A DNA stretch of 61,705 nucleotides from SAR202 cluster bacterium AC-647-P02_OGT_505m (GTDB lineage: Bacteria > Chloroflexota > Dehalococcoidia > Lucifugimonadales > UBA826). Numbering within the stretch: position 1 is the first letter of the stretch; every line of letters starts with the position of its first letter. Below are positions 32,788 through 55,292 of this stretch, one piece after another. The notes under the pieces were generated by a model. That model saw only the letters and a list, made by a program, of their open reading frames with translations, ran no database searches and was not told the origin of the DNA. The DNA lies in the NCBI GenBank assembly GCA_009391195.1, contig VEXB01000006.1, positions 1 to 61,705 of the forward strand. The letters are read 5' to 3'. The translations under genes were made by a program, and so were the position numbers.

Positions 32788-32817
32788 TTGACAAATATAG
32801 AACAGGTGTACTAATAT
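32788..32817 (+). promoter_or_regulatory. Sigma-70 promoter of the small RNA
   Basis: A perfect -35 box TTGACA (32788-32793) is followed after 18 bases by the -10 box TAATAT (32812-32817). No protein-coding gene follows on this strand, only the small RNA and its terminator. GAACAGGTGTAC in the spacer resembles a GAAC-N4-GTTC half-site pair with one mismatch. Confidence 0.8.
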
Positions 32818-32823
32818 ACTTAC

Positions 32824-32911
32824 ATCAGCTGAATAGTCGCTCCTCTTAAACGGCTAAGCGGCAGAGGGAATGAATCCCGGAGTGTCCTTAAAAGACATTC
32901 CGGGATTTTTT
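32824..32911 (+). ncRNA. Candidate small RNA (about 88 nt)
   Basis: This transcript is predicted from a near-perfect promoter and a strong terminator with no open reading frame between. The 5' part can form a small stem (TCCTCT at 32841-32846 with AGAGGG at 32863-32868). The 3' half is the terminator hairpin. I do not recognise it as any Rfam family I know. The start is set about seven bases after the -10 box. It could act by base pairing or bind a protein. Confidence 0.65.
32873..32911 (+). terminator. Intrinsic terminator of the small RNA
   Basis: A 14-bp stem (32873-32886 with 32894-32907, one G-U pair, core CCCGGA/TCCGGG) has a seven-base CTTAAAA loop and runs into a T tract at 32906-32911. 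This is among the strongest terminators in the window. Confidence 0.9.
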
Positions 32912-32972
32912 GCTTTATGTTCTCACTTATCCAGGATCGTAATTCCTTTAAGCATTGGTGAATAGAAATCTC

Positions 32973-48275: not shown

Positions 48276-49409
48276 CTATCCCAATCCTAGTTGGTAATGT
48301 TTCCCTTCAGTTTTGATTGATGGAGCTACGACGATCTCTGCAGAATGCATTTCTTTAACATTCATTGCTCCAACCATTCCCATGCAAGCTTTAAGGGCCC
48401 CTATAAGGTTTTGGGTTCCGTTTGAAACAGATGAGGGGCCAAAAAATAATTGTTCAAGTGTCCCCTTGGTGCCAACATCTACCCTTGTTCCCCTTGGCAA
48501 TGCTGGATGTGGGCTAGCCATACCCCAGTTGTATCCTTTTGCTGGGGCTTCCACTGACTGTGCAAGCGGTGTACCAATCATCACTGCATCGGCACCACTG
48601 GCGATCGCTTTGCAAAGCTCGCCCCCAGTCCTTATTCCGCCATCTGTGATAATGGGAACGTATCTACCACTACTATTAAAATAATCGTCTCTCGCCTGAG
48701 CGCAGTCCATAGTAGCCGTGACCTGTGGTACTCCCACTCCTGTGACTTCCCTCGTTGTGCATGCAGCGCCGGGTCCTACTCCGACAAGTAGTCCGTGAAT
48801 TCCCGTCTCCATAATTTCGATGGCTACGTCGTATCCCACACAGTTTCCTACCAACACAGGTACGTCTACCATTTCAAGTAGCTGTGGGAATTGCAGACCT
48901 TTAACGCTTGTAGAAGAGTGTCTTGCGGTAGTTACAGTTGATTGGACCACCAACATGTCTGCTCCTGCTTCCACAGCTAAAGGACCAAACTTCTTTGTAA
49001 ATGCAGGGGTTATAGAAACTGCGCAGTGAGCCCCAGTTTTCTTGATCTCCTTAACCCTCTTCTCTATCAAGTTTTCTTTGATTGGTTCTGAATATACTCT
49101 CTGCATAACGGAGGTGACATTTTCTCTGGATGCAGCAGCGATCTCTTCTATTGCTTCTTGGGGACTGTCGTAGCGGGTTTGAACACCTTCGAGATTCATT
49201 ACGCTCAATGCCCCCTGTCGGTGCATTTCTCCCGCGAAAGATGGGCTAGCAACTGCATCCATTGCCGAGCCTAGTACGGGTATGTCGGTGGTGACATTTC
49301 CTACTGAGAATTCAGTGTTAACCATTTCTGGATTTACTGTAACGGCACCTGGCGCTATGGCCACCTCATCAAATCCGTATACTCTTCGTAATTCCCTGAA
49401 ATTGGTCAT
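48276..49409 (-). CDS. GuaB3-like IMP dehydrogenase-family protein
   Basis: This 377 aa protein belongs to the GuaB3 branch, which lacks the CBS insertion of ordinary IMPDH. The active-site loop has Cys217 in GPGAACTTREVTG, and the phosphate region reads ITDGGIRTGGELCKAIASGA. GVQTRYDSP and a C-terminal GAMNVKEMHS are typical. The family oxidises IMP or a related nucleotide in purine synthesis. GGAGG lies about 12 bases before the ATG. The terminator of a structured RNA ends 41 bases upstream on the same strand. Confidence 0.88.
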   Translation of the reverse strand: MTNFRELRRVYGFDEVAIAPGAVTVNPEMVNTEFSVGNVTTDIPVLGSAMDAVASPSFAGEMHRQGALSVMNLEGVQTRYDSPQEAIEEIAAASRENVTSVMQRVYSEPIKENLIEKRVKEIKKTGAHCAVSITPAFTKKFGPLAVEAGADMLVVQSTVTTARHSSTSVKGLQFPQLLEMVDVPVLVGNCVGYDVAIEIMETGIHGLLVGVGPGAACTTREVTGVGVPQVTATMDCAQARDDYFNSSGRYVPIITDGGIRTGGELCKAIASGADAVMIGTPLAQSVEAPAKGYNWGMASPHPALPRGTRVDVGTKGTLEQLFFGPSSVSNGTQNLIGALKACMGMVGAMNVKEMHSAEIVVAPSIKTEGKHYQLGLG

Positions 49410-49449
49410 TATTTATGATCCTCCGTTTTGTGAAAATATCGGTGGGCCT

Positions 49450-49489
49450 AAAAAGAGAAGGGCCTACGACTTTTGAGTCGTAGGCCCTT
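49450..49489 (-). terminator. Intrinsic terminator 5' of the guaB3-like gene
   Basis: Read on the minus strand, a perfect 13-bp stem (AAGGGCCTACGAC with GTCGTAGGCCCTT, six-base loop) is followed by CTCTTTTT. It ends the structured RNA and lies about 41 bases before the guaB3 start, the position of a leader attenuator. Confidence 0.9.
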
Positions 49490-49704
49490 ACCACTTAGGG
49501 TTCTATTCTTTCACTTGTTTGCTGGCTTGATGTGTAAGTGAGCTTCCGGCGTTCCTCTGCTAATGGAAATCGTGTTGCGTGACAGGTGTAAGAACTACAA
49601 GCTGTCGTGGCTTCCGTAACCCTAGATGCCAACGCCTATCCTTAAGGAACTTAAACACATGTTACAAATCCTGCGCCAAGTATCTGAATCTTCCGATAAG
49701 ATTA
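49450..49704 (-). ncRNA. Candidate structured RNA or leader, about 250 nt
   Basis: The RNA lies on the minus strand between a near-consensus promoter and a strong terminator. Reading 5' to 3', it has a start hairpin (AATCTT/AAGATT) and a long central hairpin built of GGAA/TTCC, GACAG/CTGTC and TGTA/TACA. It also has a TCACTT/AAGTGA hairpin. Two long-range pairs cross, GGCGTT with AACGCC and TAGGGTT with AACCCTA, which implies a pseudoknot. No coding frame is seen. It could be an independent RNA or a riboswitch-like leader of guaB3. I do not recognise a known family. Confidence 0.7.
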
Positions 49705-49708
49705 AGTG

Positions 49709-49737
49709 ATGATATGGGGGTCTCAACTAAGTGTCAA
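49709..49737 (-). promoter_or_regulatory. Promoter of the structured RNA
   Basis: On the minus strand a perfect TTGACA is followed after exactly 17 bases by TATCAT (one change from TATAAT). The expected start, about 49704, coincides with the base of the first hairpin of the RNA. Confidence 0.85.
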
Positions 49738-49800
49738 CAGGGTAGTGCCTGATAAATGTTATTACCTAATTGATATGTGAAATACGGGGTATATCCTCTG

Positions 49801-55017: not shown

Positions 55018-55138
55018 AGGCATTATATGTATTTCATTTAGTCGAGTCAGAAATGCAAATTCTGTCTTAAATTGATGTTGTGTTAATATCCTTTCCTAAT
55101 CTGAAATCAAATTCGATTAGACTAAGAAAATGAGTAAT

Positions 55139-55236
55139 CAGCTGGGGGAGCTTGGTTTATCCAGGCTGAGAGGGCAACAAATAGGTTGTCGACCCCTTAT
55201 TTACCTGATCTGGATAATTCCAGCGGAGGGAAAGCG
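55139..55236 (+). promoter_or_regulatory. TPP riboswitch (THI element)
   Basis: The aptamer is recognised by GGCTGAGAGGG (CTGAGA at 55166-55171), ACCTGATCTGGATAAT (55203-55218) and CAGCGGAGGGAA (55221-55232). GCT and AGC close the P1 base. Downstream, CCCCTT (55255-55260) can pair with AAGGGG (55280-55285), which overlaps the ribosome-binding site of thiZ. Translational control by site masking is therefore likely. TPP binding should close the thi operon. Confidence 0.95.
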
Positions 55237-55292
55237 CGCGTAAGTCCAAGCAGCCCCCTTAACCGGATTATCCGATAGCAAGGGGCGTCTCT

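Follow-up and report, generated by a model that had tools for sequence, protein, structure and literature searches.

The described systems closest to the RNA considered here are the riboswitch leaders of purine genes (RF00167, 2'-dG-II, PRPP and the like), the leader-peptide attenuators of the trp, his and thr type, and 6S RNA (RF00013). In the riboswitch leaders a conserved 5' domain is followed by a divergent middle and by a terminator just before the ribosome-binding site of a gene for guanine-nucleotide synthesis; the attenuators carry a short open reading frame with a Shine-Dalgarno sequence upstream of an intrinsic terminator, ahead of a biosynthetic gene. A leader with both sets of features lies on the minus strand upstream of guaB3 in the marine SAR202 cluster bacterium AC-647-P02_OGT_505m (genus g1). 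Compared to the riboswitch leaders, it has no useful Rfam score, no visible known aptamer and no antiterminator above chance, and it occurs in a single genus. Compared to the attenuators, it has no run of regulatory codons and no supported antiterminator, and its terminator is about 130 nt downstream of the stop codon of the short upstream ORF (uORF). It resembles 6S RNA in its length and in having its own promoter, but it does not match that family and no rod is kept between the two species that carry it.

The preliminary description of this DNA could place the RNA in no known riboswitch, 6S, tmRNA or RNase P family, and the Rfam scan agreed. At both gathering and permissive thresholds, the window (ie the whole stretch analysed, 61,705 nt) and the same-genus metagenome-assembled genome OSU_TB06 gave chance scores only, and the terminator hairpin accounted for most of these. 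No covariance model for a purine, PRPP or other Rfam riboswitch matched the leader at its gathering score, and 6S RNA was matched in none of the 16 family genomes. The Thr_leader model reached 29 bits in OSU_TB06 (gathering score 55), mostly over the terminator hairpin. Neither a SAR202 small-RNA study nor an orphan guaB leader was found in the literature. We regard the leader as a real, conserved, genus-restricted RNA with a terminator, for which membership of a riboswitch class is not supported.

Promoter, terminator and conserved 5' domain

The features of the locus are collected in Table 1. The TTGACA-17-TATCAT promoter of the preliminary description is present on the minus strand at 49737-49709, with 11 of 12 consensus matches; the 61.7-kb window contains four near-consensus sites, this one included. 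As also described, a hairpin (H1) begins five bases past the -10 box. About 200 nt separate it from the terminator hairpin, which is perfect, as had been stated, although its length is 14 bp and not 13; it is followed by the tail CTCTTTTT and folds far better than shuffled sequence (z = -7.8, with none of 200 shuffles as good). Counting it, the window has three distinct hairpin terminators of at least 13 bp. The end of the predicted RNA is about 40 bases before the guaB3 ATG, in line with the 41 first given. Just upstream of the -35 box, at 49740-49760 (-), there is a conserved inverted repeat, a possible operator, which reads CAGGC-ACTA-GCCTG in OSU_TB06 and is imperfect in the window.

Table 1. 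Features of the guaB3 leader and gene, numbered as in the window
Feature	Position	Strand	Remarks
-35 box TTGACA	49732..49737	-	Kept in OSU_TB06; sister genera have similar promoters before guaB3
-10 box TATCAT	49709..49714	-	17-bp spacer to -35 box
5'-terminal hairpin H1, AATCTT-ATCGG-AAGATT	49687..49703	-	Perfect 6 bp; invariant in both species
Conserved leader core	49600..49703	-	About +1 to +104; ~92% identical to OSU_TB06; single copy; this genus only
Possible uORF, 12 codons, MCLSSLRIGVGI*	49622..49660	-	ATG and stop kept in OSU_TB06
Possible hairpin H2 (UUUAAG/CUUAAG)	49637..49659	-	Sole interspecies substitution in its loop; folding not above chance
Possible hairpin H3 (UGGC.UCU/GGA.GCCA)	49608..49631	-	Substitutions confined to its loop
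Unconserved linker	49490..49599	-	~110 nt; drifts at about neutral rate
Intrinsic terminator hairpin	49458..49489	-	Perfect 14 bp; kept in OSU_TB06 with compensatory A-U to G-C
Terminator tail CTCTTTTT	49450..49457	-
guaB3 ribosome-binding site GGAGG	49420..49424	-
guaB3	48276..49409	-	GuaB3-family IMP dehydrogenase-related protein, 377 aa

Among 197 related genomes searched, only OSU_TB06 (VFFS01000039.1; G001) has a clear homologue of the leader, which occupies the same position ahead of guaB3 and has the promoter, core and terminator as in the window. BLAST-like DNA matching in these relatives gave, beyond the genus, only short, weak hits, of which the three inspected fell in unrelated sequence. 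A covariance model of the core, run with strict filters that may miss weak relatives, recovered only the two known copies from 250 genomes of the order and a 400-genome sample of the phylum; leader-related DNA was absent from the other 248 order genomes and from the phylum sample. The exact core pattern had no match in viral contigs, and every copy of the core recovered in these searches stood before guaB3.

The two GuaB3 proteins are 93% identical, and 53-57% of the four-fold sites in guaB3, queG, prmC and prfA differ between the two genomes. The leader core (the first ~100 nt) is approximately 92% identical, compared to 83% for the guaB3 coding sequence, and the conservation spans the promoter and about 25 bp upstream of the -35 box. 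Most of the linker is 35-55% identical, which is about the neutral-site level. The terminator is conserved, with one A-U pair changed to G-C and one U-A to U-G. By this comparison, selection appears to act on three units, namely the promoter with the 5' domain, the terminator, and the ribosome-binding region of guaB3, and not on the linker. Outside the terminator, any covariation has to be read from this one pair of leaders, with cores ~92% identical.

The window holds other RNA elements. A second small-RNA candidate of about 95 nt, at 32788-32917 (+) between genes for an XRE-type regulator and an enolase-superfamily protein, consists of a TTGACA promoter followed by a 15-bp terminator (32872-32908). 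It is kept in place in OSU_TB06 and in a genome of another genus (G005), with terminator-like hairpins that differ in sequence and with an invariant CGCTCCTC...TAAGCGGCAGAGGG in which the pairs CGCU/AGCG and CCUC/GAGG might give an H-type pseudoknot. It has no convincing Rfam match. A TPP riboswitch at 55134-55249 (+) scores 55.5 bits, just over the Rfam gathering score of 54.3.

Coding capacity and folding of the leader

The preliminary description saw no coding frame in the RNA. It had missed the 12-codon uORF, whose Shine-Dalgarno sequence AGGA (49672-49669) lies 8 nt upstream of the ATG and whose stop codon is TAG in the window and TAA in OSU_TB06. There are no synonymous changes in the uORF frame, where about half of the four-fold sites would be expected to differ, so that the constraint does not look coding-like; longer frames over the conserved block are broken or shortened in OSU_TB06. 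A six-frame test of the conserved block likewise found no frame with a coding pattern, and the predicted uORF product MCLSSLRIGVGI shows no run of regulatory codons. A 57-aa ORF on the plus strand (49579-49752) was rejected, its frame being broken by a stop codon in OSU_TB06. The constraint on the 5' domain looks like one acting on RNA or DNA, not on protein.

Without its terminator, the leader folded no better than dinucleotide-shuffled sequence (z = +0.86 in the window and -0.92 in OSU_TB06), contrary to the several nested helices first proposed, and the core by itself did no better than its shuffles. The two crossing long-range pairs that had been listed, GGCGTT/AACGCC and TAGGGTT/AACCCTA, are present in the window, but both are lost in OSU_TB06, and their partners sit in the unconserved linker. 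As they are absent from the only homologue, they are probably due to chance. A failure of helices to be kept by compensating changes, which the preliminary description had named as telling against it, is seen for these pairs and not for the terminator. Substitutions between the two species avoid the stems of H1, H2 and H3, an observation that is suggestive only.

Pairing of an antiterminator with the 5' arm of the terminator was not above shuffles, 83% and 57% of which were as good. The core element AUAGGCGUU, inside the uORF, can pair with that arm with a probability of up to 0.96 in the window; in OSU_TB06 the arm prefers a different partner. Pairing between core and linker did not exceed shuffles either, save for one marginal value (0.048) among many. 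Any antiterminator may be weak, or antitermination may be mediated by a protein. The long unconserved linker makes a direct coupling of core and terminator less obvious.

GuaB3 and its promoters in related genomes

The guaB3 product scores 417 bits against TIGR01304 (cut-off 342). The gene lies divergent to queG, and the whole family and part of the order share the neighbourhood queG/guaB3/prmC/prfA. In none of the 16 family genomes does a canonical IMP dehydrogenase attain the family cut-off. Other members of the family encode a second IMPDH-like protein that is similar to GMP reductase, with a score under the curated cut-off; the search did not recover it from either g1 genome (56% and 87% complete). 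On these searches, the family seems to have no IMP dehydrogenase other than GuaB3. GuaB3 of Synechococcus elongatus has been described as the IMP dehydrogenase of that organism, essential and without CBS domains (PMC13273366). Taken with the lack of a canonical enzyme and the GMP-reductase-like nature of the relative, this makes GuaB3 plausibly the gate to GTP in genus g1.

We inspected the regions upstream of guaB3 from 13 family genomes and from 26 additional loci in the order. Much of the order has a promoter of the type TTGAC..TATNNT directly upstream of the gene, typically at -60 to -110. Within the family, promoters like that of the window, TTGACAC..CATATCATC, are found at about -237 in g2 and at -110 in g3; related promoters stand at -136 in g6 and -74 in g4. 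No strong terminator lies between promoter and gene in g2, g3, g4 or g6; in the family, only g1 has a terminator there. By eye, there seems to be a second, proximal guaB3 promoter in g2, f31 and f23. None is seen in g1, where the sole promoter-like match between the terminator and guaB3 overlaps the start codon.

The guaB3 leaders of six g2 species are also constrained, lack a strong terminator and are unrelated in sequence to that of the window; these leaders of about 200 nt (L036, L037, L039, L041-L043) show above-neutral conservation and the common block TCTAATCACATT[CT]GC. In g3 (L040, G003) the guaB3 promoter is within a long inverted repeat, CATCCATATCATCAAATA...TATTTGATGATATGGATG, that spans the -10 box. 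At one further locus (L059, G045), a Cys-rich frame of 39 codons (MKRTAREYRFAWEKSGCDDCHMRCPIPPCW...) was seen by eye upstream of guaB3, about 10 bases past a distal TTGAC..TATCAT promoter. Within the family, one promoter type feeds leaders that range from ~40 to 300 nt and have no sequence in common, ie leader turnover is rapid.

Proposed termination ahead of guaB3

Because queG is divergent, the minus-strand terminator most simply acts on a transcript begun within the intergenic region, and since no usable promoter is seen after it in genus g1, guaB3 there probably depends on transcripts that pass it. Conditional termination would be the simplest explanation. An intrinsic terminator between promoter and gene is the arrangement of a transcription attenuator, and by this layout attenuation at the guaB3 leader is likely. 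We give roughly an even chance to a leader that acts in cis on guaB3 and whose termination is conditional or leaky. RNA polymerase would start about six bases past TATCAT, make the conserved 5' domain of ~104 nt and then the freely evolving linker of ~110 nt, and run into the strong intrinsic terminator that immediately precedes the ribosome-binding site of guaB3. The majority of transcripts would end there, as an RNA of about 250 nt, and guaB3 would be expressed only by readthrough. We infer that transcription starts and stops at these sites and that a switch responding to some signal regulates the readthrough; the 5' domain would probably act through a ligand, a protein or translation of the uORF, and the level of IMP dehydrogenase would be matched to the demand for guanine nucleotides.

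A possible but clearly less probable explanation is an independent small RNA of about 250 nt, made up of a conserved functional 5' domain, a variable spacer and a terminator of its own, with guaB3 expressed by constitutive leaky readthrough or from an unrecognised promoter. A conserved 5' domain, a variable middle and a terminator form a common small-RNA pattern, which the layout here fits, down to the 5'-terminal hairpin and the perfect terminator; no antiterminator rises above shuffles, and the window has another candidate with promoter and terminator (32788-32917). However, the promoter resembles those directly before guaB3 in sister genera, no other guaB3 promoter is seen in g1, and the core was not seen apart from guaB3 in any relative searched. 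Of the two readings in the preliminary description, a leader is favoured over a purely independent RNA by these promoter findings and by the apparent standing of GuaB3 as sole IMP dehydrogenase. The suggested purine or nucleotide sensing is unsupported, there being no demonstrated aptamer fold, no antiterminator above chance and no match to a known class. It is a speculative extension of the leader model, and an improbable one, that the 104-nt 5' domain would be a new genus-restricted sensor RNA for a ligand or protein, controlling termination before a sole, CBS-less GuaB3 and so replacing the absent allosteric control by nucleotides.

Leader-peptide attenuation, in which translation of the uORF would decide whether the terminator forms, is unlikely. 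The AGGA-8-ATG and the stop codon are kept in both species, and AUAGGCGUU within the uORF can reach the 5' arm of the terminator; against this, that pairing is no better than in shuffles and is not the one preferred in OSU_TB06, the constraint does not look coding-like, there is no run of regulatory codons, and the terminator is ~130 nt away. Constraint on DNA alone, by an operator or the promoter, with a terminator that merely insulates guaB3 from other transcription, would account for the conserved ~25 bp upstream of the -35 box and the inverted repeat in them; we consider it very unlikely, as the conserved stretch extends to 104 nt beyond the start, taking in the 5' hairpin, and the divergent queG leaves little minus-strand transcription to insulate against. 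A diverged 6S or other housekeeping RNA could hide in a family where 6S was matched in none of 16 genomes, and would suit the ~250 nt with promoter and terminator, but the genus restriction, the lack of a long closed rod with a central bubble kept in both species, and promoter-to-gene distances in g3 and g4 too short for such an RNA leave it scarcely credible.

The arrangement of promoter, leader and terminator suggests that genus g1 controls guanine-nucleotide synthesis by premature termination of transcription. Should guaB3 be the sole route to GMP, and should its product lack the regulatory CBS domains found in ordinary IMP dehydrogenase, control at the level of RNA could set the GTP level in these deep-ocean cells.
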